Shown piece after piece: positions 4,409 to 20,069 of a stretch of DNA of 24,344 nucleotides. The DNA comes from a virus: positions 1-24,344 of the IMG/VR virus record IMGVR_UViG_3300023703_000808; one strand, written 5' to 3'. Each line of letters opens with the position of its first letter. The stretch's first letter is position 1. The translations under genes and the position numbers were made by a program. The notes under the pieces are model-generated. The model worked only from the letters and a program-made list of their open reading frames with translations. It ran no database searches and had not been told where the DNA came from.

Positions 4409-5134
4409 ATGGCAGAAGTACCAAGCTGGCAAAAACAGAACATGGCCAAGAATGGCGGCGCATCGGCTCCTAGCCAGATGAACCCAAAGCTGATGCCATC
4501 TGGCGCATCGGCTGGCCTTCACAAGAAGATTGCAGCTCCCAGCTTCGGCATGGGTGGCTTGGTCTCTGGTGGCAAGAAGGTCGCCAAGTTTGCTGACGGC
4601 TCCGAGGGTGGCGTGTCCGCCTCTCCTCAGTTTGACATGGGCGAGTTCGCTGGTGTTGACAAGGCTGTCTCTGACATGGCTTCCGGCCCAGACGCTCTGG
4701 CCAAAGAGAACTATGACGGCTCAACCCAAGAAAAGGTTGCGACGAACGATGAAGTTCGTGCCGCAGCCGACGAGGGTGCTGCCAAGCCTCAGTCATTCAA
4801 AGAAGCATTTGCCGAAAACCGCAAGGCTGGCAACAAAACCTTTGAGTACAACGGCAAGAGCTTCACCACAGACATCGCAACTGCGCGCGCAAATCGCACA
4901 GATGCCGAGAAGAAACAGGAAGCACGTTCTGTTGTCGCCAAGTCACTGACCAGCAAACCCGTTCGCGGCGCTGACTTTGACCCAGACAGCATAGACAACT
5001 TCTCAGGCAGCAAGCCAGCTCCAAAGGCTGCTACCGCTCAACCATCCACAGCAGCACGAGTGGTTCAACCCCGTGGCCGTGGCGTGATTGATACCAGCAA
5101 CATCGACCCGGTAACTCTGTTGCCACGTCGCTGA
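4409..5134 (+). CDS. Conserved phage protein with FKEAF...YNGKSFTT motif
   Basis: This 241-residue protein starts two bases after the preceding stop. It has a Gly/Ser/Lys-rich N-terminal half, in which FGMGGLVSGGKKVAKFADG (46-64) echoes the NGGKV motif of its neighbour. A short ordered segment spans about residues 129-157, with FKEAFAENRKAG followed by TFEYNGKSFTT. Similar segments recur in small proteins of podovirus structural modules, where they are usually unnamed. The tail is rich in Pro/Ala/Arg and probably disordered. Its position between portal and scaffold suggests a virion component or head-assembly factor. The function is not established. It overlaps the next gene by TGATG. Confidence 0.75.
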   Translation: MAEVPSWQKQNMAKNGGASAPSQMNPKLMPSGASAGLHKKIAAPSFGMGGLVSGGKKVAKFADGSEGGVSASPQFDMGEFAGVDKAVSDMASGPDALAKENYDGSTQEKVATNDEVRAAADEGAAKPQSFKEAFAENRKAGNKTFEYNGKSFTTDIATARANRTDAEKKQEARSVVAKSLTSKPVRGADFDPDSIDNFSGSKPAPKAATAQPSTAARVVQPRGRGVIDTSNIDPVTLLPRR

Positions 5135-5367
5135 TGCTGAAACACCCCGACAAACGAGTCCTCAGCGCCCTTGCAGGGCTTGAGGGCAACGAGAACTTTG
5201 AGACCGTGAAACGATGGCTTGAAGAATCACTGCAAGACCTGTACTACAACGGCGTCAGAACCAAAGATGAGTCGCTCTCACGTTGGTCGCAAGGCGCTGC
5301 ACAGGCTGTTGGTGACTTCCTCAACACAGCCAAGAACTCACAAGAGTCTCTCCGCAAATCGCGGTAA
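5134..5367 (+). CDS. Small conserved phage protein, unknown function
   Basis: This 77-residue protein starts by a TGATG overlap with the previous gene. The sequence looks compact and helical (VLSALAGLEGNENFETVKRW, then SLQDLYYNG and GAAQAVGDFLNTA), with no membrane segment or Cys pairs. Small proteins with a similar pattern sit between portal and scaffold genes in related phages. I do not recognise a function. Coupled translation with its neighbours suggests a role in head assembly. Confidence 0.65.
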   Translation: MLKHPDKRVLSALAGLEGNENFETVKRWLEESLQDLYYNGVRTKDESLSRWSQGAAQAVGDFLNTAKNSQESLRKSR

Positions 5368-5517
5368 CAGACCATTTTCGTGACGCCACGAAATTGATGC
5401 TGTTAGCAGCATTCGCTGCAAAGGGGCTGGCCCTTAAACCAGCAACCGCTGAACACCGAACGAATCGCTCGAACACCGCGAGGCTCGAATGCGTCCGTCT
5501 CGGCTCACGGAGTAAAC
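5368..5517 (+). promoter_or_regulatory. Intergenic hairpin cluster before the scaffold gene
   Basis: This 150-base gap is one of the longest in the head module. It contains three hairpins in a row: TTTCGTG/CACGAAA with a 4-base loop (5376-5393), ATGCTG/CAGCAT with loop TTAG (5397-5412), and GCTGG/CCAGC with an 8-base loop (5426-5443). Further on, GAACACCG and GCTCGAA each occur twice. None of the hairpins has a U-tract, so these are not classic terminators. GGAG is placed to serve the ATG at 5518. It may contain an RNA-processing site, a late promoter or an operator. No promoter consensus is obvious. Confidence 0.35.
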
Positions 5518-6453
5518 ATGTCATCTACTGCACCACGCGCAGTCTTGGAAGCCGAAGAACGTGCCAACAAGCTGCAAGAAGAACTTATCGCAAACAAGCA
5601 ACAAGCTGCATCTGGGGAGCCTCCTGCTGATAGCACACCTCCTGCGAGTGAAACACCTCCAGTAGAAACGCCGCCAGCTCAAGGCTCGGAAAACCCTGCA
5701 CCCGCGAACGACTCTCAACCTCCGACCCCTGCACAGGGCGAGGATTGGGAACACCGCTTCAAGGTTCTGCAAGGAAAGTACAACTCAGAAGTGCCGCGCT
5801 TTGCACAGGAAAACAAAGACCTGAAATCGAGGCTTGAAAACCTTGAGTCAGAAATGACTCGGTTGAAAGCTACTCCACCTGAACCGCTGGTCAAACAAGA
5901 AGAGATTGACGAATACGGCGAAGGCTTAATCGACGTTGCTCGACGCATTGCTCAAGAAGAGCTTGCGAAAAAGCAATCAGAGATTGACGCCCTCAAAGCA
6001 CAAATCAATCAGATTTCTACCGCGACGACCAACACGGCGAAGAACGACTTTTTCAAATCTTTGAACGCAATCGTCCCTGAATGGGAACAGATTAACGCAG
6101 ACCCAGCCTTCCTCACATGGTTGGATGAGTTTGATGAGTTAGCTGGCGAGACGCGACAAACCCTGTTGAGCAAGGCCGAAGCCGCTCGTGATGCTGCTCG
6201 CGTAGCAAAGTTCTTTGCGTCGTTCAAGAAGACATCTTCATCGTGGGCGGCGAATAGCCAAAGCGCTCTCGAACAACAAATCGTGCCACCGACGAACAAG
6301 GCTCCCGACACGCCCCCTTCAAAGAAGGTGTGGACTCGTGGCGAGATTTCCGAGTTCTATGACCGTGTGCGCCGAGGCGATGTTACGGACGCAGAGGCTA
6401 TCGCCATCGAAGCTGACATCACCGCAGCTTCAATCGAGGGTCGTATTCGATGA
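5518..6453 (+). CDS. Capsid scaffolding protein
   Basis: This 311-residue acidic protein lies immediately before the major capsid gene, the canonical scaffold position. After a short helix, residues 31-74 are Pro/Ala/Glu-rich and disordered. Residues about 76-118 and 137-168 are predicted coiled coils (for example FAQENKDLKSRLENLESEM). The C-terminus is a basic helix-turn-helix-like segment, WTRGEISEFYDRVRRGD (about 272-288), ending EGRIR. This resembles the capsid-binding tail of podovirus scaffolds. It would guide procapsid assembly and then leave. The start has a good Shine-Dalgarno (GGAG). No protease motif is visible. Confidence 0.88.
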   Translation: MSSTAPRAVLEAEERANKLQEELIANKQQAASGEPPADSTPPASETPPVETPPAQGSENPAPANDSQPPTPAQGEDWEHRFKVLQGKYNSEVPRFAQENKDLKSRLENLESEMTRLKATPPEPLVKQEEIDEYGEGLIDVARRIAQEELAKKQSEIDALKAQINQISTATTNTAKNDFFKSLNAIVPEWEQINADPAFLTWLDEFDELAGETRQTLLSKAEAARDAARVAKFFASFKKTSSSWAANSQSALEQQIVPPTNKAPDTPPSKKVWTRGEISEFYDRVRRGDVTDAEAIAIEADITAASIEGRIR

Positions 6454-6485
6454 CCCGCAAATCAAATCTTTAAGAGGTAATTCAA

Positions 6486-7397
6486 ATGTCATTTCCCGTA
6501 GCTTCTGGCCGTACTCAGTACAGCGGTAACTTCATCCCCGAAATTTGGTCTGGCAAGCTCCAAGCCAAGTTCTATAAAACCACTGTTTTCAGCGAAATTT
6601 CCAACAACGATTGGGAAGGCGAAATCAAGGGTCAGGGCGACAAGGTTCACATCCGCACCATCCCCACAATCACCATCAACTCGTATGCCAAAGGCGACAA
6701 CCTGACCAATCAGGTTCCAACCTCTGCTCCTATCGAGCTGTTGATTGACCAAGGCAAATACTTCGCTGTTGTGTTGGACGACGTTGACGCCGTTCAAACC
6801 GACGTGAAGTTGATGGACATGTTTACCAACGACGCCACAGAGCAAATGAAGATTGCCATCGACGCGCAAATCTTGGACGGTGTGAAAGCTGCTGCTGCCA
6901 CTACCAACAAGGGTGCAACTGCTGGTGCAATCTCTGGCAACGTCAACTTGGGTACTGACGCATCTCCCCGCGCCGTGACCAAGGCCAACATCATCGACCT
7001 CATCTTGGATGCCGGTCAAGTGTTGGACGAGCAAAACGTGCCTGAATCTGGTCGCTGGTTGGTCATCCCATCTTGGATGGCTGCCATGATTAAGAACTCT
7101 GACTTGAAGCAAGCCTACTTGACTGGCGATAGCGTGTCTCCCTTGCGTAACGGCAAGTTGGGCATGATTGACCGCTTCCAAGTCTATGTGTCCAACAACT
7201 TGCCCAAGACCGCCGACGGCGACAGCTACTTGTTGGCTGGTACAAAAGACGCGATTACCTTCGCTTCTCAAATGACCAACGTGGAAACTCTCCGCGCTCA
7301 GTCAACTTTCGGCAACATCGTTCGCGGCTTGAACGTGTTCGGTTACAGCGTCATCAAACCAGAAGCTCTGGTGAACATGGTTGCTGTGAAGGGCTAA
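6486..7397 (+). CDS. Major capsid protein (HK97-like fold)
   Basis: This 303-residue protein follows the scaffold gene with a GAGG ribosome site. The N-terminus (GNFIPEIWSGKLQAKFYKTT), the segment GQGDKVHIRTIPTITI, a central acidic loop around VVLDDVDAVQTDV, and the helix plus WLVIPSWMAAMI pattern are typical of the short HK97-fold coat proteins of podoviruses. It would form the icosahedral shell. Leucine is encoded by TTG in most positions, a bias consistent with a highly expressed gene adapted to its host. A strong terminator follows directly, so the head transcript probably ends here. Confidence 0.95.
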   Translation: MSFPVASGRTQYSGNFIPEIWSGKLQAKFYKTTVFSEISNNDWEGEIKGQGDKVHIRTIPTITINSYAKGDNLTNQVPTSAPIELLIDQGKYFAVVLDDVDAVQTDVKLMDMFTNDATEQMKIAIDAQILDGVKAAAATTNKGATAGAISGNVNLGTDASPRAVTKANIIDLILDAGQVLDEQNVPESGRWLVIPSWMAAMIKNSDLKQAYLTGDSVSPLRNGKLGMIDRFQVYVSNNLPKTADGDSYLLAGTKDAITFASQMTNVETLRAQSTFGNIVRGLNVFGYSVIKPEALVNMVAVKG

Positions 7398-7409
7398 TCA
7401 CCTCCGGCT

Positions 7410-7423
7410 GGGGCTTCGGCCCC
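7410..7423 (+). other. Stable UUCG-loop hairpin after the capsid gene
   Basis: GGGGC-TTCG-GCCCC forms a 5-bp all-GC stem closed by a C(UUCG)G tetraloop, among the most stable RNA hairpins known. It lies between the capsid stop codon and the U-tract terminator. It could protect the capsid mRNA 3' end from exonucleases or strengthen termination. Confidence 0.6.
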
Positions 7424-7429
7424 TTGACT

Positions 7430-7462
7430 CCCCACTGAGGTTTTCCTCGGTGGGGTTTCTTT
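7430..7462 (+). terminator. Intrinsic terminator after the major capsid gene
   Basis: An 11-bp perfect stem, CCCCACTGAGG with CCTCGGTGGGG around a TTTT loop, is followed by TTTCTTT. This is a textbook rho-independent terminator. It probably separates the head transcript from the tail genes, or attenuates read-through to them. Confidence 0.93.
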
Positions 7463-7476
7463 ACTGAGACACACGC

Positions 7477-7668
7477 ATGACGCGACAAATGAAAAACATC
7501 CGTACCGGCAAGATTGCTGTGTACGACGCTGACCTTGTAGAAGGTGGGCGCTGGGAGGAGTTCTTTCCCCCAAAAGAAAAGCCAGCATTGAAGCTCAAGA
7601 AGCTCAAAGGCACAGGCTCACTTGAAGTTGCACCCGCAGCAGATGCTGCTGCACCTGAAACCAAATAA
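7477..7668 (+). CDS. Small conserved phage protein after capsid
   Basis: This 63-residue protein has NIRTGKIAVYDADLVEGGRW near its N-terminus, a basic Lys/Leu-rich middle and an Ala/Pro tail. Small proteins with a similar 'tGkv..yd..l' start follow capsid genes in many phages. Their function is not established; decoration or assembly roles are possible. The Shine-Dalgarno is weak, and a second in-frame ATG at 7489 could be the start instead. It is the first gene after the capsid terminator. Confidence 0.6.
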   Translation: MTRQMKNIRTGKIAVYDADLVEGGRWEEFFPPKEKPALKLKKLKGTGSLEVAPAADAAAPETK

Positions 7669-7681
7669 CTGAACAACAGAC

Positions 7682-8026
7682 ATGGCAACTTTCCAAGCTA
7701 TCACAGATGAAGCTCGCGTATTGCTCAATGACCAAATCATTGACGCGAACACCATCACTCGATACACGGAGTCCCAGTTGCTTGGCTACGCACGTCAGGC
7801 TCTCGTTGAGGCCCGTCGTGTTCGCCCAGACCTGTTCCTCTCAAACCTCACCGGCGCATTCCCTGCATTCGCGGCAACAGATATTGTTCCGCTGCCAGAG
7901 GAATACCACGTCTGTTTAACAGATTACGTCACTCACCGCGCTGAATTGCGTGACGATGAGTTTGCTGTTGATGGGCGAGCTGCTGGCCTGTATCAAAAAT
8001 TCAAAGCGGGGCTGATGGGCGTATGA
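7682..8026 (+). CDS. Head-tail adaptor-like protein
   Basis: This 114-residue protein has a predicted helical layout: TDEARVLLNDQ, a serine/threonine turn, then LGYARQALVEARRVRPDLFL, the loop DIVPLPEEY, and a closing helix. This matches the small adaptor proteins that dock under the portal in short-tailed phages. The pattern 'DIVPLPEEYHVCLTDYVTHRA' fits the family (LP..y...l.dyv.yra). It is located after the capsid and translationally coupled (GTATGA at 8023-8026) to the next connector gene. It likely binds the portal and bridges to the connector/nozzle. The exact family is not certain. Confidence 0.75.
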   Translation: MATFQAITDEARVLLNDQIIDANTITRYTESQLLGYARQALVEARRVRPDLFLSNLTGAFPAFAATDIVPLPEEYHVCLTDYVTHRAELRDDEFAVDGRAAGLYQKFKAGLMGV

Positions 8027-8673
8027 AGACCTACGAGGCATTCTTTCCCGATGTGCTTCCCGATGTTCCGGGCTGCCCTTCGGATGTGGCAATCCGTGCG
8101 ATTCGCCATGCTGTGATTGAATTTTGCGAGAAGTCGCTGATTCACCAAATCACCCAAGACCCCATCACTCTGCGGGAAAACCTGACAGACTACGACTTAG
8201 ACGCACCAAACGGGTATCGAGTCCAGAAGGTGATGAAGGTTTGGTTCCGTGGTGTTGAGCTTGAGCCAGCCGCTCCAGATGACATCGTGACACCAGATGC
8301 GTATAGCCAGTCTATTGGCGGCTACACACCATCCAAGTCAACCCCAACGGCGTACACACAAAAAGATTTTGAGTCGGTAAGTTTCCTCCCAATTCCGAAT
8401 CAGACGTACACCAACGCTATTACAATGCGTGTAGCACTCGTGCCTCTGCGTGATTCAACACAGATTGAGGATTTCCTCTACGAGCAATGGGGCGAGTCGA
8501 TCGCCTGTGGTGCAAAAGCCCGGTTGATGCTCAATCCCGGCAAACCCTACACAAACCAAGAAGCCGCTGCAATCAATCAAGGTCGCTACATGATGGCCCT
8601 GAATGATGCGCGTCAACGCGCTATTCGCGGCAATGTGCGCTCAGACTTGAGCGTGAAGATGAGGAAGCCATGA
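8023..8673 (+). CDS. Tail connector / tubular protein-like
   Basis: This 216-residue protein overlaps the adaptor gene by ATGA. It starts with a helical segment (VAIRAIRHAVIEFCEKSLIH), continues with a beta-rich middle (YRVQKVMKVWFRGVEL, MRVALVPLRDS), and ends with a helical C-terminus (WGESIACGAKARLMLNPGK). This order of helices and strands is typical of second-ring connector proteins in podovirus tails. It would act between adaptor and nozzle (the 607-aa protein). It overlaps the next gene by ATGA. Confidence 0.72.
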   Translation: MKTYEAFFPDVLPDVPGCPSDVAIRAIRHAVIEFCEKSLIHQITQDPITLRENLTDYDLDAPNGYRVQKVMKVWFRGVELEPAAPDDIVTPDAYSQSIGGYTPSKSTPTAYTQKDFESVSFLPIPNQTYTNAITMRVALVPLRDSTQIEDFLYEQWGESIACGAKARLMLNPGKPYTNQEAAAINQGRYMMALNDARQRAIRGNVRSDLSVKMRKP

Positions 8674-8996
8674 CAGAGAAAATCAAGCTCGTCGCTGGCG
8701 ACAATCGCCCCTACATCAAGCTAACTCTCAGGGATGCAGATGGCAATGCCATCAACCTTGAGAACACCACGGTGCGCGTCTACTTCCGCGCTGTCGGTTC
8801 GGACACAGTTCTCTCAACCATCACCTGCAACATGATTAACGGTGGACGTGACGGCCAAGTGTCGTTCAACTTCACTGGCAACACGTTGGATGTTGAACCC
8901 GGCCCTTACGAGGGTGAAGTCGAGATTGACTTCGGTGGAGAGCTGCAAACCGTCTATGACGTGTTGAAGTTTCAAGTACGTCAACAATTTAACTGA
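8670..8996 (+). CDS. Baseplate-type beta-sandwich domain protein (BppU-N-like)
   Basis: This 108-residue, all-beta protein consists of one domain: KIKLVAGDNRPYIKLTLRDA, an NLENTTVRVYFR strand, GQVSFNF, PGPYEGEVEIDF, and a final strand. The pattern resembles the N-terminal domain of phage upper baseplate proteins (BppU_N family), which attaches receptor-binding parts to the tail. Here the domain stands alone. It begins the cluster of tail and fibre modules. ATGA overlap couples it to the connector gene. Confidence 0.7.
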   Translation: MTEKIKLVAGDNRPYIKLTLRDADGNAINLENTTVRVYFRAVGSDTVLSTITCNMINGGRDGQVSFNFTGNTLDVEPGPYEGEVEIDFGGELQTVYDVLKFQVRQQFN

Positions 8997-9008: not shown

Positions 9009-9446
9009 ATGTCCGCAATGACCGACTTTCTGGAAAACAAACTGATTGACCAGATTTTCCGTGGCCAAAGCGCCCCAGCAACTGCAACCTTGTATGTCGC
9101 TCTGTTCACAGCAGCGCCAAGCGATGCAGCAGGTGGCACTGAGGTTTCGACAAACGGCTACGCTCGCGTGGCTGTGACATCGAGCTTGGCTAACTGGGCT
9201 GGCACACAAAGCGCTGGCTCAACGGTTGCCTCATCTGGCACTGGTGGCCAGACATCGAACAACGCTGCAATCACATTCCCAACTCCCACTGGTGGCGGCT
9301 GGGGTACTGTGACTCACTTCGCAATCTTTGACGCTGCCACTGGCGGCAACATGCTGCTGGAAGGCGCACTGGCAATCGCCAAGACCATCAACGAAGCCGA
9401 CACGGTTTCTTTCCCTGCGGCATCTCTGGCAATCACCTTCGCTTAA
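9009..9446 (+). CDS. Phage tail fibre-family small protein
   Basis: This 145-residue protein matches a common phage tail module. The N-terminal helix DFLENKLIDQIFRG leads to LYVALFTAAPSDAAGGTEV and NGYARVAV. Later come AAITFPTPTGGGWGTVTHFA and IFDAATGGNML, then the beta-rich end. Such proteins are often annotated as tail fibre proteins and probably form a trimeric beta structure at the tail. It has a good GAGG ribosome site. It belongs to the consecutive set of short tail proteins between connector and lysis genes. Confidence 0.8.
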   Translation: MSAMTDFLENKLIDQIFRGQSAPATATLYVALFTAAPSDAAGGTEVSTNGYARVAVTSSLANWAGTQSAGSTVASSGTGGQTSNNAAITFPTPTGGGWGTVTHFAIFDAATGGNMLLEGALAIAKTINEADTVSFPAASLAITFA

Positions 9447-9465: not shown

Positions 9466-10374
9466 ATGCTTCTAAACGTCACTCCATTAAACAAGGTCGT
9501 CCTTAACGGACGAAGCGGAGAGTTCAAGGGGCTTGCAGGAAGTGTTTCCGCAAGCGCCTCAGTTGCATCAGCGCTAGGCAAAACAGACAGACTGGTTTCA
9601 AGCCTATCCGTCACTGCTGCCACAGCATCTGCTGCAACGATTGGCAAGCGCCTGAGCGCATCAGCCACAGCAAGAGCTACAACCTCGGCATCACTTGGCG
9701 TTGTCAAGAACGAGTCAGCATCTGTCACAGCACGGGCAACGACCACAGCGTCAGCGTCCAAACGAGTGAACATGGCTGGCTCTGCAACGATGGCCGGCAT
9801 GACGGTTGCTGCCGCCAAGGTGAACAAGCTGGTCTCAGCGACAGCCACCGCGCGCGGAACGGTATCTGCCACAGCCAAAGTCAACAAGCTGGTGCGAGCT
9901 GCCGCAGTCGCTGCCGCATCTGTCTCCGTCTCGGCATTGCTGGGCAAGAGGCTGCAAGGCGCACTGACGAGCTACCTGACGACACAAGCAGCCGCCTCGT
10001 TGTCTGTGAACATGAGTGCGAGCCTAAAAACAGACAGTGGCTCACATAGTGAGCTTCTGCTTGAGGCAAACATAGCCGCCAGTCTGTTGGCGTCTGTCAA
10101 CGGTCAGCCGATGGTGTACGTCGAGCGCTCCATCAAATCTGATGGCGTTGTGATTACCGCCTCTGCTGATGGCAAGTTGGTGTTTTCACATCTGGTGAGT
10201 GCAGAAGTCGGCGGTCATTCGTACTTTGAACAATCGTTCACAAGCGTCTTCGCAACTGCGGAGCTGGTGGACACATGGAAGAACCACATCAAGATTGATG
10301 TTGACGCTTCTGTGAAACCAATAACGGCAAGTGCCGAACTGTACTACCCACCGGTTGTGCAGGGCGCACCATAG
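9466..10374 (+). CDS. Ala/Ser/Thr-rich protein with 20-residue tandem repeats
   Basis: This 302-residue protein is dominated by about ten tandem repeats of 19-21 residues. Each has alternating small residues (Ala with Ser/Thr/Val) and usually ends in a basic or Asn residue plus a hydrophobic one: DRL, KRL, VNM, NKL, NKL, KRL, VNM, ANI, RSI, SHL at residues 43, 63, 103, 122, 142, 163, 183, 203, 223 and 243 (KNE occupies the slot at 83). Alternating inward/outward residues suggest short beta strands, so a beta-solenoid or trimeric fibre shaft is likely. The last 60 residues are non-repetitive and beta-rich. A GGAG site precedes the ATG. It lies among tail modules, so a tail-shaft role is inferred. 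I do not recognise a characterised homologue. Confidence 0.75.
   Translation: MLLNVTPLNKVVLNGRSGEFKGLAGSVSASASVASALGKTDRLVSSLSVTAATASAATIGKRLSASATARATTSASLGVVKNESASVTARATTTASASKRVNMAGSATMAGMTVAAAKVNKLVSATATARGTVSATAKVNKLVRAAAVAAASVSVSALLGKRLQGALTSYLTTQAAASLSVNMSASLKTDSGSHSELLLEANIAASLLASVNGQPMVYVERSIKSDGVVITASADGKLVFSHLVSAEVGGHSYFEQSFTSVFATAELVDTWKNHIKIDVDASVKPITASAELYYPPVVQGAP
9595..10074 (+). repeat. DNA encoding the 20-residue tandem repeats
   Basis: This stretch encodes residues 44-203 of the Ala/Ser/Thr-rich protein, eight consecutive units of 19-21 codons. The repeats are clear in protein but degenerate in DNA. Only short pieces are kept, such as GTGAACATG and AACAAGCTGGT, each seen twice. 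This suggests an old duplication under protein-level selection rather than a recent expansion. Confidence 0.75.
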
Positions 10375-10382
10375 GAGCTTTC

Positions 10383-10748
10383 ATGGGTATCAAGTTTTCA
10401 AACAATGCAAGCGCAACGCTGGCAGCGGGTATCAACAACCTTGCAACCAGCGTTTCTGTTTCAACAGGTCAGGGCGCTCTCTACCCGACGCTTGGCGCTG
10501 GCGAATACTTCTACGCCACTCTGGTCGATTCAAGCAACAACCTTGAAATCGTCAAGGTGACAGCTCGCAGCGGTGACTCAATGACCATCGTGCGTGGTCA
10601 GGACGGCACAACGGCTCGCACGTTTGCATCTGGAGACAAGCTGGAAGTTCGACTCACTGGCGCTGGTCTCTCTGCAATTCAGCAAGAGGCCATCGACAAC
10701 ACAACTGCTGCCGTTGGTAGCGCTTTGGCTTTTGCAATCGCCCTGTAA
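10383..10748 (+). CDS. Conserved tail module protein (IKFSNNA..VRGQDGTTA family)
   Basis: This 121-residue protein is a common phage tail module. It starts IKFSNNASATLAAGINN, then has GALYPTLGAGEYFYATLVD, LEIVKVTARSGDSMTIVRGQ and DGTTARTFASGDKLEVRLT. Elsewhere this domain is often found at the N-terminus of tail fibres or as a stand-alone tail protein. It is predicted to be beta-rich and may attach fibres to the tail. It starts after a TAGGAG site nine bases from the previous gene. Confidence 0.78.
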   Translation: MGIKFSNNASATLAAGINNLATSVSVSTGQGALYPTLGAGEYFYATLVDSSNNLEIVKVTARSGDSMTIVRGQDGTTARTFASGDKLEVRLTGAGLSAIQQEAIDNTTAAVGSALAFAIAL

Positions 10749-10757
10749 GGAATCAAC

Positions 10758-11084
10758 ATGTCAAACACTTTTAAGAACTACCCAAGCGCCGGTATCGGCA
10801 CAACTCCTGTTGATGTCTACACCGCTGGCGCTGGCGTCCAAGCAACTGTCATTGGTATGACTGTGGCCAACATCACCGCTGCAAACGTGACTGCCGACAT
10901 CAAAGCTACCGCAGGTGGCGTGACTGTCTACATCGTAAAGGGAGCATTGATTCCACCCGGCGGCGCTCTCGTTCCAATCGGCGGAGACCAGAAGGTTGTG
11001 CTCGAAGCAGCAGATAAACTCACAGTTCAAAGCGATACAGCTTCTGCACTCGACGTTCTGTTGTCCGTCCTCGAAATCGCTTAA
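10758..11084 (+). CDS. Conserved small virion/tail protein, beta-rich
   Basis: This 108-residue protein has FKNYPSAGIGTTPVDVYTAG, ATVIGMTVANITAANVTADI, and LIPPGGALVPIGGDQKVVLE as recognisable blocks. The pattern (a beta-sandwich of about 100 residues) recurs in phage structural modules next to tail fibre genes. It may be a small attachment or decoration domain of the tail. A taAGGA ribosome site precedes it, and the next gene starts 12 bases downstream. The function has not been established. Confidence 0.72.
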   Translation: MSNTFKNYPSAGIGTTPVDVYTAGAGVQATVIGMTVANITAANVTADIKATAGGVTVYIVKGALIPPGGALVPIGGDQKVVLEAADKLTVQSDTASALDVLLSVLEIA

Positions 11085-11095
11085 TAGGAGCGTCT

Positions 11096-11884
11096 ATGTC
11101 ATGGATTGGTAAAAAGGCTGCGGACGTAATCACGTCCGGTCAGCAACTGATTAACGGAACAATTACCGCTGCAAAGTTTGCTGCTGGTGCTGTTGTTTCG
11201 CATCTTGGCTATACGCCAGCAAACAAAGCTGGAGATACGATTCAAAGCGGCGCTTGGCTTGATTATCAGACTGGCGCAGGAGTATCGTTAAAAGGCGTTC
11301 GTGCGATTCCTTTTGGATATGGTGCTCCATATACAGCGCTGCAAATTGGTAACGCATCAGGCAATCAAAACCTATCTCTTGGTGTTGATGTTTCTGCAAT
11401 TACTGGCGGAAATTTTTCTGGCAACGGGAAGGATATTGTTGTACCAAATGCGGTCAACTTTATGATGCCTAATGCAGCCAACACTGATTTCATCAAAGCA
11501 ATGGGTTTTGATACAAACGGGAACCTTCAATTTAACAGTGGGTATGGCTCTGCCGCTGTTGCATATGGTTGCCGCGCTTGGGTGAACTTCAACGGAACTG
11601 GCACTGTAGCTATTCGTGCAAGCGGCAACGTGAGTTCTATTACGGACAACGGCACTGGCGACTACACGGTGAACTTCTCGACTGCAATGCCTGATGCAAA
11701 CTACTCCATCACGGGTATCACTACTGGCTACTCTGCAAGCGATAACGCAGGCGTATCGGTTACAGTTGGAGGAAGCCTTTATACAAGCGCACTTCTTTAC
11801 ACCACTTCTTCTGTTCGCGTATCAGCGGGTAGAAATGGCACCCCACTAGACGGTGGTGTTATCTGCGTCAACGTATTTCGCTAA
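11096..11884 (+). CDS. Tail fibre / receptor-binding protein 1
   Basis: This 262-residue protein has three parts. The N-terminus is helical (MSWIGKKAADVITSGQQLI). The shaft element LGYTPANKAGDTIQ (about 37-50) is common in phage fibres. The C-terminal half carries YGCRAWVNFNGTGTVAIR (157-174) and DNGTGDYTVNFSTAMPDANY, a typical fibre-tip domain. It probably trimerises and contacts the host surface. The DNA is visibly more AT-rich (about 40-43% GC in two sampled 60-base stretches) than the head genes, as expected for exchanged host-range modules. Two small coupled genes and a terminator follow, making a cassette. Confidence 0.85.
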   Translation: MSWIGKKAADVITSGQQLINGTITAAKFAAGAVVSHLGYTPANKAGDTIQSGAWLDYQTGAGVSLKGVRAIPFGYGAPYTALQIGNASGNQNLSLGVDVSAITGGNFSGNGKDIVVPNAVNFMMPNAANTDFIKAMGFDTNGNLQFNSGYGSAAVAYGCRAWVNFNGTGTVAIRASGNVSSITDNGTGDYTVNFSTAMPDANYSITGITTGYSASDNAGVSVTVGGSLYTSALLYTTSSVRVSAGRNGTPLDGGVICVNVFR

Positions 11885-11896
11885 TCAGGAGCAACA

Positions 11897-12307
11897 ATGA
11901 AACGAATCATCTATCAAACACCAGAAGGCGGCGTTGCCGTCATCATCCCGTCCGGCGAGCTGCCAATCGAAGAAGTTGCTCGCAAAGACGTTCCTGCTGG
12001 CTTGCGCTACGCAATCATTGACACAGCAGATGTTCCGTCAGACCGCACATTCCGTTCTGCATGGGAAGTTGAGCACGGCAATCTGAATGACGGCGTTGGC
12101 ATCGGCCAGCAAGCATGGTTCATTGAGCAGTATCAAGCTGAACTCGCAGTCGTGACTGCCGCAGAAGTTCCTGCACGCATGTCTGCCGAAGAGCAAACAG
12201 ACGAGCAGTACGCAGAAGTGGTCGCTCAGTTCGAGGCATCTCGTGCCGCTCGCGTTGAGCAACTGAACAAACAAATCGCAGCAATGCAAGCAGAGGTGGC
12301 AGCATGA
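11897..12307 (+). CDS. Small protein downstream of fibre 1 (possible fibre chaperone)
   Basis: This 136-residue protein starts MKRIIYQTPEGGVAVIIPSG and has AIIDTADVPSDRTFRSAWEV in its middle. It ends in a helical, probably coiled-coil segment (about residues 100-136, ARVEQLNKQIAAMQAEVAA). Proteins with this start are frequent beside phage tail fibre genes, mostly without a name. Position suggests an assembly chaperone or fibre partner. It overlaps the next gene by ATGA (12304-12307), so the two are probably made together. CAGGAG precedes the ATG. Confidence 0.72.
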   Translation: MKRIIYQTPEGGVAVIIPSGELPIEEVARKDVPAGLRYAIIDTADVPSDRTFRSAWEVEHGNLNDGVGIGQQAWFIEQYQAELAVVTAAEVPARMSAEEQTDEQYAEVVAQFEASRAARVEQLNKQIAAMQAEVAA

Positions 12308-12540
12308 TTACGGTCAACATCGACAAAGCCAAAACAATCGCTCACGACGCACGCCGCGCAGCTCGCGCAGCCGAGTTCGCCCCATTGGATGAAGTGATTA
12401 CAAAACAGATTCCCGGCACAGATGTGCAAGCTGTTGAGGCCCAACGTCAATCTGTTCGCGACAAGTACGCAGCAATGCAAACTGCCATCAATGCAGCTTC
12501 GACTGTTGACGGCATCAAGGCTGCAATGCCTCAAGCCTGA
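12304..12540 (+). CDS. Small helical protein of fibre cassette 1
   Basis: This 78-residue protein is almost entirely helical (KAKTIAHDARRAARAAEFAP, then VEAQRQSVRDKYAAMQTAIN), with the loop LDEVITKQIPGTD. Short helical proteins of this kind (N-terminal 'K A K . I . H d . . R') are encoded just after fibre genes in many phages, where they may assist fibre assembly. It is the last gene before the terminator at 12561. There is no membrane segment or signal peptide. Confidence 0.68.
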   Translation: MITVNIDKAKTIAHDARRAARAAEFAPLDEVITKQIPGTDVQAVEAQRQSVRDKYAAMQTAINAASTVDGIKAAMPQA

Positions 12541-12560
12541 TAACGGCAAACACGAACAAG

Positions 12561-12587
12561 GCCAGCCTAGCGCTGGCTTTTCTTTTT
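12561..12587 (+). terminator. Intrinsic terminator between fibre cassettes 1 and 2
   Basis: A GCCAGC/GCTGGC stem with loop CTAGC is followed by TTTTCTTTTT. The tract runs straight into the Shine-Dalgarno GGAGA of the next gene, whose ATG is at 12598. Termination here would limit expression of the downstream fibre relative to the upstream one. Confidence 0.85.
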
Positions 12588-12597
12588 GGAGAATTGA

Positions 12598-13854
12598 ATG
12601 TCCTATATCGGGAATGCACCTGTCGTTCAGGCGTCGCGTGTAACCACTGAGTTGGTTGCCATTGCTGGCCAAACCGACATCTACCCTCTGGGCGGCTACA
12701 CACCGGGCGACTATCTCGATGTAGAGATTAACGGCTCCGCCCTCAAGTCAACAGACTACACGGCAACAGACGGCGTAAAGATTACTTTGGCTGTCGCAAT
12801 GGCTGCTGGTGACGATGTTCGCGTCAAAGCCTTTGGCGTCTTTCAGGTTGCCAACGCTGTTCCTGCAAATGGCTCAGTGAGCGCTACAAAGTTGGATGTT
12901 GCTAGTTCAAATGGCACTGGCGCATCATCTCTGCCGTCCGGAACAACAGCCCAACGCCCATCTTTGCCGTCTACTGGAATGCAACGATACAACACGTCGT
13001 TGAAGCAAATCGAAGCATTCAATGGCTCAGCTTGGGTTGCCGTCGGAGACATGACCTCAACATACTCTGTTGGCTATCTACTTTTAGGCGGAGGTGCTGG
13101 CGGCGGATATTCAGATGGCGGTGGCGGCGGTGCGGGCGGGTTTATTGAATCAACCGCAGTATTGACGGCGGAGACCGTATACGCGATTACTGTTGGTGCT
13201 GGCGGGTCAGCCGGTACGTCTGGCTCAACCAAGGGCGGGAACGGAGTCAACTCATCCTTTGTGGCTATTTCGGCAATCGGCGGCGGCGGCGGCGCTGGCG
13301 TTGGTAATTCTGCAAACTCAGGTGGCTCAGGTGGCGGCGGATGCTACACCTACACGTCAGCGGAAGGTGCTGGCACTTCTGGTCAAGGCTACGGCGGCGG
13401 ACACGGCAACAACTATGTCAGTGGGTCTGGCTCCGCAACTGGCGGCGGCGGAGGCGGCGCTGGCGGTGCTGGCGGTGCTGGTGTTGGTGGTCAAGCTGGT
13501 GTTGGTGGTGCTGGCAAGTCTAGTTCTATCACAGGCTCTGCCGTTACCTATGGCGGTGGCGGTGGCGGTGGTGCATACGCAGGTCTTGGCGGCGCTGGCG
13601 GTGCTGGCGGAGGCGGTCAAGGCGGCGGCACAAGCGGCCCTCAGTTGTTGGGTGGCGCTGGCGCTGCAAACACCGGCGGTGGTGGTGGTGGTGGCGCAGA
13701 CAGTAACAGTGGCGGCGCTGGTGGCTCTGGCGTTGTTGTTCTTTCTGTTCCAACAACTAGGTATAGCGGCATTACAACCGGCTCCCCGACTGTTACAACT
13801 AGCGGAAGCAACACAATCTTGAAGTTCACTACTTCTGGCTCTTACACGGCATAA
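12598..13854 (+). CDS. Glycine-rich tail fibre / adhesin
   Basis: This 418-residue protein combines three parts. The N-terminal domain (about 1-100, MSYIGNAPVVQASRV) and a short module with GTTAQRPSLPSTGMQRYN (about 119-136) are both typical of phage fibres. A long glycine-rich region follows (about 163-381) with runs of five to eight Gly broken by Ala, Ser and aromatic residues. The C-terminal beta segment contains GVVVLSVPTT and ILKFTTSGSYTA. Glycine-rich adhesins of this type (for example the T4-like S16 gp38) pack polyglycine-II helices and present variable loops to the receptor. A receptor-binding tip is therefore the likely role. The DNA is GGC/GGT-repetitive, which favours recombination between alleles. 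Confidence 0.85.
   Translation: MSYIGNAPVVQASRVTTELVAIAGQTDIYPLGGYTPGDYLDVEINGSALKSTDYTATDGVKITLAVAMAAGDDVRVKAFGVFQVANAVPANGSVSATKLDVASSNGTGASSLPSGTTAQRPSLPSTGMQRYNTSLKQIEAFNGSAWVAVGDMTSTYSVGYLLLGGGAGGGYSDGGGGGAGGFIESTAVLTAETVYAITVGAGGSAGTSGSTKGGNGVNSSFVAISAIGGGGGAGVGNSANSGGSGGGGCYTYTSAEGAGTSGQGYGGGHGNNYVSGSGSATGGGGGGAGGAGGAGVGGQAGVGGAGKSSSITGSAVTYGGGGGGGAYAGLGGAGGAGGGGQGGGTSGPQLLGGAGAANTGGGGGGGADSNSGGAGGSGVVVLSVPTTRYSGITTGSPTVTTSGSNTILKFTTSGSYTA
13087..13731 (+). repeat. GGN-rich low-complexity DNA in the adhesin gene
   Basis: This stretch consists largely of GGC, GGT and GCT codons, such as the repeated GGCGCTGGCGGTGCTGGC, and encodes the polyglycine core. The other frames and the opposite strand are open by composition only, so no additional gene is called. 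Confidence 0.85.
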
Positions 13855-13863
13855 GGAAAACAC

Positions 13864-14217
13864 ATGTCACATTTTGCAAAAGTAAACAACGGCATCGTTG
13901 AGCAAGTCATCGTTGCTGAACCTGAGTTCTTCGAAACATTCATTGACACATCACCCGGTCAATGGATTCAGACCAGCTACAACACGCACGGCGGCGTTCA
14001 TGCAAACGGCGGTACACCACTTCGCAAGAATTACGCTGGTGTTGGCTTCACATACGACGCTCAGCGCGACGCATTCATTCCACCCAAACCATTCGCAAGC
14101 TGGACTCTGAGTGAAGATACTTGCCTGTGGAGTGCTCCTGTTGCAATGCCAACAGACGGCAAGCAATACACATGGGATGAGGCGACGACTGCTTGGGTTG
14201 AAGTACCTGCACAGTAA
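13864..14217 (+). CDS. Small protein of fibre cassette 2 (MSHFAKV family)
   Basis: This 117-residue protein begins MSHFAKVNNGIVEQVIVAEP and contains IDTSPGQWIQTSYNTHGGVH, LRKNYAGVGFTYDAQRDAFI, and a C-terminal part SWTLSEDTCLWSAPV...YTWDEATTAWVEV. The last part resembles the tryptophan-rich end of tail fibre assembly proteins. Proteins of this family are common in aquatic phages, usually next to fibre or structural genes. A chaperone or virion role is inferred. It follows the adhesin after nine bases with an AGGA site and is followed by hairpins. Confidence 0.78.
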   Translation: MSHFAKVNNGIVEQVIVAEPEFFETFIDTSPGQWIQTSYNTHGGVHANGGTPLRKNYAGVGFTYDAQRDAFIPPKPFASWTLSEDTCLWSAPVAMPTDGKQYTWDEATTAWVEVPAQ

Positions 14218-14227
14218 CGGACACACA

Positions 14228-14253
14228 CAGACTTGAGCGCAAGCTCTTGTCTG
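14228..14253 (+). other. GNRA-loop hairpin in the 14218-14315 gap
   Basis: CAGAC-TT-GAGC-GCAA-GCTC-TT-GTCTG folds into a two-part stem with a symmetric TT/TT internal loop and a GCAA (GNRA) tetraloop. It lies between the MSHFAKV-family gene and the terminator. It has no U-tract of its own. Possible roles are RNA stabilisation or processing. Confidence 0.45.
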
Positions 14254-14273
14254 TTGTTCCACCAGATTCCAAC

Positions 14274-14300
14274 ACCGACACAAGCTGTCGGTTTTCTTTT
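14274..14300 (+). terminator. Intrinsic terminator between fibre cassettes 2 and 3
   Basis: ACCGACA/TGTCGGT with loop CAAGC is followed by a T-rich tract that includes TTTTCTTTTT, the same tract as the terminator at 12561. The ribosome site TAGGAG for the next fibre gene (ATG at 14316) lies directly downstream. Confidence 0.88.
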
Positions 14301-14315
14301 TCTTAGGAGCTTCCA

Positions 14316-14885
14316 ATGAGCCTTGCTCGTTATCTCTCAAAACTTGCCGGGCTAGTTGGCTCTGATGGCAAGGTTCCTATGTCCGCCCTGAGCGGCATTC
14401 TTGCGAAAGGGCAGCTCCCATCTGGCGCTGTTTTGCAGGTTGTCTCGGCTGTAAAAACTGACACATTTTCTACGACATCTTCGTCAGGTGTTGACATTAC
14501 AGGTCTGTCTGCAAGCATTACACCAACAAGTGCATCAAGCAAAATTTTGATTTTGAGTGATTGTTCGTTTGGTGGAAGCGCTGGTAATGCGGCAGTTCTT
14601 CGGCTTGCAAAAAATGGTAGCGTCATTTACGGCGGGGATTTTTCATCAGGCCGTCCAAACGGACTTGCATGGGGATATAACGGTTCAGACTACAACTTGC
14701 AGAGAAGTGGCGGTGTTTACCTTGATTCTCCAGCCACAACATCTGCGATTACATACAACTTAAAGTTGTCAAACACAGATGGTATAAATGCTGCGTATAT
14801 AAATCGCTCAACGGCTGACAGAGCAGCAACGAATTATGACCTTCGCACGGCATCATCAATTACCCTAATGGAGATTGCGGGATGA
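14316..14885 (+). CDS. Tail fibre / receptor-binding protein 3
   Basis: This 189-residue protein has a helical N-terminus (LARYLSKLAGLVGSDGKV) and GAVLQVVSAVKTDTFST followed by ITGLSASITPTSASSKILIL (about 61-80). A beta-rich tip rich in Gly, Asn and Tyr follows. The 'TPTSASSKILI' signature is widespread in fibre proteins of aquatic phages. The DNA is AT-richer than the head genes (about 40-42% GC in sampled stretches), suggesting exchange. It overlaps the next gene by ATGA (14882-14885). A role in receptor contact is inferred. Confidence 0.82.
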   Translation: MSLARYLSKLAGLVGSDGKVPMSALSGILAKGQLPSGAVLQVVSAVKTDTFSTTSSSGVDITGLSASITPTSASSKILILSDCSFGGSAGNAAVLRLAKNGSVIYGGDFSSGRPNGLAWGYNGSDYNLQRSGGVYLDSPATTSAITYNLKLSNTDGINAAYINRSTADRAATNYDLRTASSITLMEIAG

Positions 14886-15151
14886 ACCACAAAGCAATTT
14901 ACTCTTTATATCCGCAAGTCGCTTCTATTGATGACGAGGATGGTGCATTTGATTCGCAAGGCAATAAAGTCACCATCGACATTGACGCTGTCAATGCTTG
15001 GGTTGACAAAGGCGCATACAGGTCACAACGAGCATCGGAATATCCTCCAGTCACAGATTACCTCGATGCAGTTGTAAAGGGCGACCAAGCTCAAATCGCA
15101 AAGTACATTGCTGATTGCCAAGCAGTCAAAGCAAAATACCCAAAGCTTTGA
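14882..15151 (+). CDS. Small protein of fibre cassette 3
   Basis: This 89-residue protein has an acidic N-terminal half (ASIDDEDGAFDSQGNKVTID) and a helical C-terminal half. The C-terminal half contains RSQRASEYPPVTDYLDAVV and the ending AVKAKYPKL. The 'YPP..dyLDa.vkgd' pattern with a C-terminal 'vk.kyPK' is frequent in small phage proteins encoded beside fibres. ATGA overlap couples it to fibre 3. It likely assists fibre assembly or attaches to it, but no function is established. Confidence 0.72.
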   Translation: MNHKAIYSLYPQVASIDDEDGAFDSQGNKVTIDIDAVNAWVDKGAYRSQRASEYPPVTDYLDAVVKGDQAQIAKYIADCQAVKAKYPKL

Positions 15152-15471: not shown

Positions 15472-15495
15472 ATCATTGACCCGATTAGCTTACTC

Positions 15496-17627: not shown

Positions 17628-19451
17628 ATGTCCGGAATCAAGTTACAGGGCTTTGCTGGTTTCGTACCGCGCCAAAGTCCGTATCTGCTGCAAGAGAGCG
17701 AGGCCCAGAAAGCCATCAACACCAAGCTGTATAGCAATGAGGTTCGTTCTTGGCAGAAACCCGGCGTCATTGACCCACGACGCATCATTGCAGACTATGT
17801 GCCACTGACCATCTACCGCACCATCGGTGCATCTGGTGATGACCTGTGGCTGACATTCAGCAAGGACGTTGACATCGTTCCCGGCCCAATCTACGACACC
17901 GGCTACTCGCTGTACTACACGAACGCTGGTTCTGATGGTTTGCCCAAGAAGACCAACGCTGCACTGGCGTCTGTTGGAGCTGGCCCAAGCTATCCGGGAG
18001 ACTACCTGTTGATGGGCGTTCCATACCCAACGGTTGCCCCAACTGTGGCAGCCTCTGGTGGTTCGGGTACAACCCCTGAGAATCGGGTCTACGTCTACAC
18101 CTACATCTCCGAGTTCGGCACGATTGAGGAGGAGTCCGCTCCATCCCCAACGTCAGCTCAAGTTGTGGTGAATGCTGGCGGCACGGTGACAATCACTGGA
18201 TTGCCAACAACCGCACCCGTCGGCAAGTACAACATCACCAAGAAGCGCATCTACCGCTCTGTCACTGGCAGCAGCTCGACCATCTTCTTGCACGTTGCAG
18301 ATGTTGCGATTGGCTCGGCATCCTACACAGACACTCTGTTGGCTGCAAACCTCGGTGGCGTGCTTCCATCAAGCGGCTGGACTCCACCTCCTGACGGAAT
18401 GCGTGGCTTGGTCAGCATGGCCAACGGCATCATGGCTGGATTTGTTGGGAATGAGATTTATTTCTCTGAACCTTACAAGCCTCATGCGTGGCCGGCACAG
18501 TACGCGCTGTCTGTTGAATATCAGATTGTTGGCTTGGCAGCCTTCGGCTCATCCCTTGTTGTGATGACCAAGGGCAACCCATTCGTCATCACTGGTTCAA
18601 CCCCTGCGGCAATGTCGCAGGAGAAGCTACCGCTGTACGAACCCTGCATCTCGAAGCGCTCCATTGCCAGCGATGAGCAGGGCGCGATGTACGCATCACC
18701 CAACGGCATCATCAAGATTGGCCCCGGTGTCGCCGACAACGTGACCCGTCAACTGTTCACACGCGATGAGTGGAACCTGTACGCCCCAGCAACCATGCTC
18801 GGCGAAGTGCAGGATGGACGCTACTTCCTGTTCTATGAAACAGACAAGGACAAGGGCGGCCTGATTCTTGACCGTAACAACACGGCATCTCCGCTGACAG
18901 AGACCAATCTGTTCGCAACAGCCTTGCACACAGACCCTGTGAACGCGAAGCTGTACCTGTGCGAAAACAGTGAGGTCAAAGGCTGGGACAGTGACCCATT
19001 CAACGGTATGCCGTATGAGTGGAAGTCCAAGGTGTTTGTGTTTCCGCGCCCACTGAATCTGTCTGCTGGTCAGGTTGATGCTGACTTTGAGAACTTGAAC
19101 CCACTGGGTAAGCAAGACCAACTGAGCATCATCGACCACGTTAAGGCGGCGAACAGGGCGCTCTGGGCGTCTGTCTCGAAGTTGCTTGGCAACATCAATG
19201 ACAAGCCACTGAACGACTCGCTGCTCAACAGCTCAATCCTCCAGCCAATCCCTCTGATTGATGAGCGCTTTGTAACGCTTTCGATTTACGGAGATGGTGT
19301 GTTGCGTGCTGTGGTTCACGTTTCGAATCACAACCCGTTCCGCTTGCCATCTGGCTTTAAGTGTGACCGCTGGGAGTTTCAGGTCAACGGCAACATTCCG
19401 CTGCGCTTCATCAAGGTGGCGGAGACATCCAAAGAACTGGCGCAAATCTAA
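17628..19451 (+). CDS. Tail nozzle / stabilisation protein
   Basis: This 607-residue, beta-rich protein has the size and composition of podovirus nozzle (tubular protein B / P22 gp10-like) proteins. The N-terminus is FAGFVPRQSPYLLQESEAQK. The middle has a fibronectin-like insert around YVYTYISEFGTIEEESAPSP (about 154-173) and repeated propeller-like strands (YLLMGVPYP, MANGIMAGFVGNEIYFSEP, RYFLFYETD). The C-terminus ends FRLPSGFKCDRWEFQVNGNI, typical for this family. It forms the distal tail tube through which DNA passes. It is located after the lysis genes rather than beside the connector. It overlaps the next gene by TAATG. Confidence 0.85.
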   Translation: MSGIKLQGFAGFVPRQSPYLLQESEAQKAINTKLYSNEVRSWQKPGVIDPRRIIADYVPLTIYRTIGASGDDLWLTFSKDVDIVPGPIYDTGYSLYYTNAGSDGLPKKTNAALASVGAGPSYPGDYLLMGVPYPTVAPTVAASGGSGTTPENRVYVYTYISEFGTIEEESAPSPTSAQVVVNAGGTVTITGLPTTAPVGKYNITKKRIYRSVTGSSSTIFLHVADVAIGSASYTDTLLAANLGGVLPSSGWTPPPDGMRGLVSMANGIMAGFVGNEIYFSEPYKPHAWPAQYALSVEYQIVGLAAFGSSLVVMTKGNPFVITGSTPAAMSQEKLPLYEPCISKRSIASDEQGAMYASPNGIIKIGPGVADNVTRQLFTRDEWNLYAPATMLGEVQDGRYFLFYETDKDKGGLILDRNNTASPLTETNLFATALHTDPVNAKLYLCENSEVKGWDSDPFNGMPYEWKSKVFVFPRPLNLSAGQVDADFENLNPLGKQDQLSIIDHVKAANRALWASVSKLLGNINDKPLNDSLLNSSILQPIPLIDERFVTLSIYGDGVLRAVVHVSNHNPFRLPSGFKCDRWEFQVNGNIPLRFIKVAETSKELAQI

Positions 19452-19654
19452 TGAAGAAACCAGCCATCCCCGCAATCCGTGGAATCACAGACCGCAGTTT
19501 GTTGAGCGTGCTCACGCCGATGAAGGAGAACATTGAATCCCTCACCGGTGTGCGCGAGGGAATCATTGAAATGCTCCCTGCAACAACAACCGATTTGCCC
19601 ACGATTGTGGGGAAAATTAACGAGATAATCGCGAGGCTTAACGCCCATGACTGA
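19451..19654 (+). CDS. Small conserved virion-module protein
   Basis: This 67-residue protein starts by TAATG overlap with the nozzle gene. It contains PAIRGITDRSLLSVLTPMKE and NIESLTGVREG, then a C-terminal helix (TIVGKINEIIARLN). This 'DR.L..vL..iKEniE.itG.r' pattern is common in small genes downstream of podovirus nozzle genes. The function has not been established; a tail or internal-core accessory is likely. It overlaps the GNAT-like gene by eight bases. Confidence 0.72.
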   Translation: MKKPAIPAIRGITDRSLLSVLTPMKENIESLTGVREGIIEMLPATTTDLPTIVGKINEIIARLNAHD

Positions 19655-20069
19655 AAACCTCGTTATCAGACTTATCCCGACTGATTTAGTCAACCAGTTC
19701 ATCCCGCTTGTGAAGTCTCACATCGAGGGTGCGCTTACCCATGCAGATGTCAGCTTTGAGCAGGTCAAGGTGTTCTTGACCGGTGGAAGTTGGAGTCTGT
19801 TGTTGGTGACTGATGAGGAAGAAAACCTGCGTGGTGCTTACACACTGGCCTATACAAATGGGCCGAATGACCGTGTGGCAACGATTGTCACAGCAGGTGG
19901 CGCTGGCCTTGCGAGCCAATACGCTTTTGACCGTGTTTGCGAAATCGCAAAGTCCAACGGAGCTACAAAAATTCAGGCGTTAGCCCAACAGTCTCAAGCC
20001 CGTCTTTACCGACGTGCCGGCCTTGTTGAAAAAGCAATTCTGATGGAGAAGAAATTATGGGTGGAGTAG
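19647..20069 (+). CDS. GNAT-like acetyltransferase fold protein
   Basis: This 140-residue protein has the layout of the GNAT fold. Strands SWSLLLVTDEEENLRGAYTL are followed by ATIVTAGGAGLASQYAFDRV (about 78-97), where the acetyl-CoA loop would lie. The end ARLYRRAGLVEKAILMEKKL (118-137) matches GNAT motif B. The acetyl-CoA loop Q/RxxGxG/A is imperfect (AGGAGLA), so activity is uncertain. T7 gp13 and related phage proteins in the same position have a similar fold and function in virion assembly. It overlaps the next gene by 13 bases. Confidence 0.72.
   Translation: MTENLVIRLIPTDLVNQFIPLVKSHIEGALTHADVSFEQVKVFLTGGSWSLLLVTDEEENLRGAYTLAYTNGPNDRVATIVTAGGAGLASQYAFDRVCEIAKSNGATKIQALAQQSQARLYRRAGLVEKAILMEKKLWVE

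Follow-up and report, generated by a model that had tools for sequence, protein, structure and literature searches.

Organisation of the fibre locus

Three short fibre genes in series, each followed by one or two small genes, raise the question of what the small genes do and which part of such a locus is exchanged between phages. We addressed this question for positions 11096–15151 of a complete IMG/VR virus record of 24,344 bases (hereafter the window), which the original prediction had interpreted as a modular receptor-binding array of fibre-plus-partner cassettes that can be swapped at intrinsic terminators or differentially expressed. This interpretation was largely right but mistook the unit of exchange, and it was partly supported: the modular array and a chaperone-like behaviour of the partners found support, while terminator-bounded swapping and differential expression did not.

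Judging by its proteins, the window belongs to a podophage with relatives in the GP4/BcepIL02 group. Its nozzle-type protein (607 aa, 17628–19451) matched the GP4 virion-associated protein (PDB 8jov chain A, E 7.6e-92), and the product of 9009–9446 matched the GP4 fibre I protein gp80 (8jou_a, E 7.3e-20) as well as the Pfam family Gp80; we take 8jou and 8jov to be GP4 structures, in line with this Pfam name. The window encodes homologues of three parts of a GP4-like podophage tail: the nozzle, fibre I (gp80) and the fibre anchor. A search of isolated phages returned no close DNA relative, and a search of bacterial genomes for prophage relatives returned three nozzle matches at 32–34% identity, which are uninformative for the array. 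Among the contigs compared, two (L002 and L003) are further contigs of the window phage and carry the same array, while L004 and L005, mutually identical over 12.9 kb, represent a second phage whose nozzle is 78% identical to that of the window and the overlapping half of whose capsid protein is 98% identical. The nozzle proteins of three further loci (L006, L008 and L012) are 41–64% identical to the window's.

The seven genes of the array all lie on the plus strand and have exactly the coordinates and lengths (262, 418 and 189 aa for the fibres) originally predicted. The slot 1 fibre F1 (11096–11884, 262 aa) has an N-terminal anchor at residues 1–32 (MSWIGKKAAD...) and, at about residues 150–262, a tip (type 1) that belongs to the tail fiber family phrog_11355. 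It is followed by its partner p1a (11897–12307, 136 aa) and by a second, tail-assembly-chaperone-like partner p1b (12304–12540, 78 aa), which overlaps p1a. The slot 2 fibre F2 (12598–13854, 418 aa) combines an anchor at residues 1–99 (MSYIGNAPVV...) with a glycine-rich tip, whose domain matched PF21722 Gly_rich_2 at 52.4 bits (curated cut-off 24.3), and precedes p2 (13864–14217, 117 aa), the partner of glycine-rich tips. The slot 3 fibre F3 (14316–14885, 189 aa) has a short anchor (MSLARYL...) and a type 3 tip; its residues 35–189 resemble the C-terminus of orf22 in PDB 9efk (658 aa, 18 chains; E 3.9e-14), and the start of its partner p3 (14882–15151, 89 aa) lies inside the F3 stop (ATGA). Purine-rich ribosome-binding sites of the GGAG/GGAAA type precede F1, F2, F3, p1a and p2. 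As predicted, the three fibre ends are unrelated, with no similarity found when F1, F2 and F3 were compared with each other.

The intrinsic terminators proposed between the cassettes are real candidates, each with a stem, a T-rich tail next to it and a negative folding z-score: terminator 1 (T1; 12558–12580, plus strand) has a 9-bp stem and a z-score of −2.1, and terminator 2 (T2; 14274–14292, plus strand) a 7-bp stem and a z-score of −4.0. An extra hairpin with a GCAA loop lies 3' of p2 on the same strand (14228–14253, z −3.6). Cassette 3 has no terminator behind it, and an Rfam search for structured RNA between the cassettes gave no match.

The predicted extent covered the fibre cassettes, but the array really starts two genes earlier. 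The first of these, g10383 (10383–10748, plus strand, 121 aa), is a free-standing fibre-anchor domain: its residues 3–110 align with residues 4–110, at the N-terminus, of the GP4 tail fibre, a 439-aa protein with 18 chains in the structure (PDB 8jov chain 1; E 1.6e-21), and in four relatives (L006, L008, L012 and L017) this type of domain is fused to a single longer fibre. The second, g10758 (10758–11084, plus strand, 108 aa), stands directly before the fibres and is a probable docking adaptor of the fibre rack. Of its 96 distinct homologues, 87 have directly behind them a gene whose product begins with an M..IG-type peptide, against a background of 297 among 3371 ORFs; g10758 itself is 79% identical in L005.

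Tips and partners are replaced between related phages

We compared the window with L005, which retains g10383, g10758, the three-slot order and a terminator behind slots 1 and 2. A relative with the same gene order and no exchange had been named as the case that would speak against modularity; in L005 the order of the slots is kept but all three tips and partners differ from those of the window. The breakpoints of DNA similarity fall at window positions 11148, 12583, 12878, 14210–14247 and 15474. Specifically, similarity runs from the upstream DNA to 11148 (codon ~18 of F1), is lost, and returns at 12583, just beyond T1; it then spans the F2 anchor as far as 12878 (codon ~94) and is lost again, apart from 38 nt around the p2 stop and the extra hairpin (14210–14247), which are 84% identical between unrelated flanks, before restarting at 15474, behind the array. 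The F1 and F2 anchors are 59% and 56–57% identical in L005, respectively, with the tip replaced in both.

The 5' breakpoint therefore lies within the fibre gene, after the anchor, and the 3' breakpoint at the partner stop or terminator, meaning that the unit is not a terminator-to-terminator cassette. The expectation that whole cassettes would be gained or lost exactly at terminators thus holds for the 3' junction only. A further observation comes from slots 1 and 2 of L005, where C1q-like tips (48% identical to each other) and partners matched by the XkdW profile (about 81% identical) are carried on two different anchors within one genome. From these comparisons, in which anchors were conserved and tips exchanged, the mobile unit is tip plus partner, extending from just behind the anchor to the partner stop, with the anchors staying in place. 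DNA identities outside the phage's own lineage were about 70–78% at best, so that exchange with anything sampled was not recent, and we rejected the idea that tips had been transferred very recently.

A slot-ordered rack in six phages

A scan of IMG/VR with the single g10758 protein yielded four more phages (L494, L503, L507 and L542). Including the window and L005, six distinct phages thus have anchors in the order 1-2-3 behind g10758, even though capsid and portal proteins, in the three contigs that reach that far (L494, L503 and L507), are only 22–27% identical to those of the window. In the four additional phages the slot 1 anchor reads M[SGA]Y[IL]GTKP (MSWIGKK in the window; summarised as MS[WY][IL]G[KT]K), the slot 2 anchor MSYIGNEP (MSYIGNAP in the window; MSYIGNxP) and the slot 3 anchor M[ST][KN]A[RQ] (MSLAR in the window; M[ST]xAR).

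Behind these anchors the tips change places. Tip 1 with p1a and p1b occupies slot 1 in the window and slot 2 in L494; tip 3 with p3 occupies slot 3 in the window, slot 1 in L494 and L507, and slot 2 in L503; C1q tips with XkdW partners take slots 1 and 2 in L005, slot 2 in L503 and slot 1 in L542; and glycine-rich tips are found in slot 2 of both the window and L507. No other evidence speaks as strongly for anchors as position markers, and for tip plus partner as the exchangeable unit, as this reshuffling of tips among slots on constant anchors. Against it stands the shortness of the slot 1 and slot 3 motifs (8 and about 5 residues). For slot 3, the N-terminus of F3 had no BLAST similarity to the slot 3 fibres of the other racks, and its equivalence is judged from position and a five-residue motif. 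The L494 rack has homing endonuclease genes (GIY-YIG and HNH) at three of its junctions, the window array none; at slot junctions such enzymes could promote tip exchange.

Each tip type is paired with its own small gene

To examine tips and partners on a wider scale, we searched IMG/VR starting from the partners and, in separate scans, from two of the tips, retrieving ~480 loci; as these are mutually related and many were picked via a partner or a tip, the counts that follow are not independent. Across all loci, tip 1 was followed by p1a in 159 cases and by p1b in 5, tip 3 by p3 in 154, and glycine-rich tips by p2 in 92. The only cross-pairing consisted of three glycine-rich tips followed by p3, which may be frame artefacts of GC-rich repeats, and tip 1 fibres were never followed by p2 or p3. 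Viewed from the partners, homologues of p3 came directly after a tip 3 fibre in 79 of 80 cases, in almost all of which the two genes overlap by 1 or 4 nt, those of p2 after a glycine-rich tip in about 70 of 80 (67 of 81 by HMM or composition), and those of p1a after a tip 1 fibre in about 74 of 78, with p1b next to p1a in 67 of 80 p1a loci. The fibres bearing these tips have many different N-termini. The small downstream gene is thus the cognate, tip-specific partner of the fibre in a one-to-one pairing.

The pairing is less complete when loci are selected by their tips, with a partner present behind 56 of the 93 tip 3 fibres and behind 67 of the 98 with tip 1. About a third of the fibres of these two types therefore lack a recognised partner directly behind them, which counts against our preferred explanation; part of this deficit can be explained if tandem fibres, as in the Prochlorococcus phage P-SSP7, share one partner. 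An apparently higher conservation of partners than of tips was rejected as selection bias, since it held in partner-selected loci and was gone or reversed in tip-selected ones.

Partners are probably tip-specific chaperones

The original prediction proposed that the small proteins could be fibre chaperones, and in their pairing, their relation to S74 tips and the affinities of p1b they do behave like tip-specific ones. Fibres ending in the Peptidase_S74 domain ("chaperone of endosialidase"), a built-in chaperone, were followed by a gene from the five partner families in 0 of 40 cases, compared with 379 of 551 for fibres with tips 1–3; for any next gene of at most 140 aa the proportions were 6/40 and 447/551 (Fisher p about 1e-19 and 1e-17, respectively, for loci that are phylogenetically non-independent and a tip set that is partly partner-selected). 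Two slots of the racks themselves, slot 1 in L503 and slot 2 in L542, hold such S74 fibres, each with the next fibre gene immediately behind it. The absence of a partner where the chaperone is built in supports a role of the partners as chaperones in trans.

Comparisons of the individual partner families gave results of differing clarity. In the p1b family, PF16778 (Phage_tail_APC) matched 18 of 42 members at E up to 1 (best 6.5e-5; none for the p1b of the window itself), and every other family matched at most 4 members. Among phage structures in the PDB, the AF2 model of p2 (pLDDT 94) came closest to a 162-residue chain of 7ypx, the length of the Pam3 chaperone gp25, although the match was weak (E 1.1, prob 0.51); a Pfam search with the p2 of the window gave no match. 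The p1a model (pLDDT 95) consists of an alpha/beta domain (residues 1–56) and a helical tail (71–135), for which a fold search returned nothing credible. No homology to known chaperones was found for p1a and p3, and no partner significantly matched a chaperone of known structure. We also considered p3 as a member of the XkdW family (PF09636) and rejected this, with 0 XkdW matches in 34 members and an hhalign probability of 0.5% to the XkdW partners of L005. On the whole, p1a, p1b, p2 and p3 are probably tip-specific trans-chaperones.

Alternatively, the small partners may be permanent structural or receptor-binding subunits of the tip, like S16 gp38 on gp37, so that a cassette encodes a two-protein tip. 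A one-to-one pairing would be expected under this role as well, some chaperones stay attached to the fibre (PMC10579305), and p2 and p1a are modelled as confidently folded, independent domains. However, absence of the partner where the tip has an intramolecular S74 chaperone is the pattern expected of an assembly function, the likeness of p1b to tail assembly chaperones speaks against a permanent subunit, and the nearest phage fold to p2, albeit weakly matched, is a chaperone. We therefore regard the permanent-subunit explanation as unlikely.

Terminators and expression of the array

Candidate terminators at both boundaries could divide the array into three separately regulated transcripts, with different fibres made at different times or in different particles. 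The terminators of L005 (5325–5342 and 6366–6388) occupy the same two positions as T1 and T2 and differ from them in sequence, which argues that T1 and T2 are functional. However, no promoter-like site was found on the plus strand of the window between 8000 and 18000, nor between 4000 and 8600 of L005. Lysis and nozzle genes lie downstream of the array on the same strand, meaning that transcription must pass T1 and T2 or start from promoters that we did not see, and in the racks of L494, L503, L507 and L542 neighbouring genes lie close together or leave no gap at all. An invertible or phase-variable fibre cassette was likewise rejected: we found only two imperfect inverted pairs (22–24 nt), neither of which bounds a cassette. 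Separate regulation of the three fibres, and with it the predicted differential expression, is thus distinctly improbable; with needed genes downstream and no promoter-like site, T1 and T2 may only tune stoichiometry or 3' ends.

Nor do the terminators belong to the exchanged unit. In a strict scan of other phages, a terminator was found behind 0 of 147 p1a, 2 of 96 p2 and 1 of 112 p3 genes, and we rejected the idea that they are part of the cassette; they are lineage-specific.

Finally, it is very improbable that a single slot, whether slot 1 or another, is functional and the remaining ones are relics: L006, L008 and L012 do manage with one fibre gene, but none of the three fibre ORFs of the window is disrupted and each has its partner and a ribosome-binding site, L005 also has three intact fibre ORFs with partners, and slot order is kept in six phages.

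Relation to known fibre systems

The modularity of anchors and tips and the mobility of fibre–chaperone modules are established (PMC9608196, PMC10579305, PMC8262889). The closest parallels differ from the window in instructive ways. The tail fibre of Pam3 consists of gp24 only, which is structurally related to S16 gp38 and has a small tip-binding chaperone, gp25 (PDB 7ypx; PMC9608196). Like the gp24/gp25 pair, the window combines a small one-protein fibre, an N-terminal docking part and a glycine-rich distal tip with a small chaperone-like partner, but the Tfa-like gp25 ends in a helical trimerisation domain, which the 117-aa p2 lacks. In the Alteromonas phages V22 and A5, fibre and chaperone-cap modules are common to distantly related phages, and the chaperones resemble intramolecular chaperone domains (PMC10579305), which fits the mutual exclusion of cis and trans chaperones in our data. 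There, sharing extends to the complete host-recognition module, whereas the family described here moves only tip and partner, onto slot-specific anchors, three per phage. Similarly, GP4 carries a 439-aa fibre on its anchor domain, whereas the window has the free-standing anchor g10383 and then three short fibres. P-SSP7 resembles the window in having serial fibres of the same tip 3 and p3 families, with tips of type 3 at three places in series.

C1q-domain and XkdW genes have been listed in hypervariable regions (metaviromic islands) of marine phages (PMC3909814). In the literature on P-SSP7-type fibres and on such islands we found no report of specific tip–partner pairing or slot-ordered anchors. 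Nor did the literature compared contain a rack with ordered slots and constant docking codes, a one-to-one pairing of tip families with partner families such as the three largely unnamed ones here, or a mutual exclusion with S74.

A probable three-slot rack with exchangeable tips

We consider it quite probable that the locus gives a GP4-like podophage a receptor-binding rack with three slots, built from slot-specific anchors and exchangeable tips that move as one unit with their cognate chaperone or cap. The original prediction of a modular array is borne out to the extent that tips and partners have been exchanged between related and unrelated phages. In the mechanism we propose, g10383 and g10758 would form an attachment collar or adaptors at the tail, to which three short, probably trimeric fibres would dock via slot-specific N-terminal peptides. 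The gene or genes behind each fibre would supply a tip-specific chaperone or cap needed for tip folding, which then either leaves the fibre or caps it. Tip and partner would be swapped, slot by slot in the population, by recombination events that fall between the conserved anchor and the partner stop, and the unchanged anchors would keep each fibre's position on the virion. Three specificities would be presented at once, with all three fibres on one particle, and a wider host range through the tip array is plausible.

More tentatively, and a little short of an even chance in our estimation, different podophage lineages may share a slot-addressed rack in which g10758 reads three different docking codes whose order is fixed, the freely mobile unit being the tip–chaperone pair; p1a, p2 and p3 would then be undescribed fibre-chaperone families interchangeable with S74 acting in cis, and homing endonucleases like those at slot junctions in L494 may contribute to exchange.

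These results offer an annotation grammar for the receptor-binding regions of metagenomic phages (a constant anchor, a variable tip, and a tip-specific partner or built-in S74), and they give a testable function to small families unnamed in the libraries searched (phrog_7759, phrog_9114 and the p1a family). With breakpoints readable from related genomes, the recombining unit of fibre genes becomes directly testable. They also suggest that a phage can hold several receptor specificities and change one slot at a time.

The fibre anchor and its neighbours in related phages

The domain encoded by g10383 (window 10383..10748, + strand), a free-standing fibre anchor in the window phage, was also found fused straight onto a glycine-rich tip plus its partner p2, in loci L129 and L131. 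The group formed by these two loci and L134 carries an additional copy of the anchor located downstream, which in L129 and L134 is free-standing and approximately 117 aa long. Directly upstream of g10383, between it and the gp80-like gene (GP4 fibre I homologue), the window encodes an Ala/Ser-rich repetitive protein of 302 aa (9466-10374); its counterpart at the same position in the relative L006 has 543 aa. A further protein, 140 aa long and with virion genes on either side (19647-20069), resembles a GNAT acetyltransferase, as judged by eye; no homologue of it was found at the equivalent position in the closest distinct phage (L004 and L005).

In the fibre rack of L494, we found three homing-endonuclease-like genes (GIY-YIG/HNH set), located upstream of slot 1 (7324-7866), between slots 2 and 3 (10111-10599) and downstream of slot 3 (11805-12356). 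Tip-3 and p3 fibre genes occur together with a peptidase endolysin in Limnohabitans phage DC33 (PQ492659.1; 39 kb), whose taxonomy line reads Inoviridae; given that such genes typify tailed phages, this label is probably a wrong record assignment.

Fibre ends and partner forms

In L006, the stretch 4522-8727 holds a single g10383-anchored fibre gene; downstream of it lie two 2OG-Fe(II) oxygenase genes, on either side of one for a radical-SAM protein (phrog_1802). The fibre's C-terminal sequence is ...GSNCNCNCCCCC, and among + strand ORFs of at least 90 aa in approximately 560 loci no other had at least 5 Cys within its final 12 residues. This fibre end is possibly subject to enzymatic modification.

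Homologues of p1a, a partner of tip type 1, come in two sizes (loci L208-L287): short (approximately 60-70 aa) and long (at least 130 aa), the latter featuring a helical tail. The helical part absent from the short forms may be supplied by p1b, the other partner of this tip.
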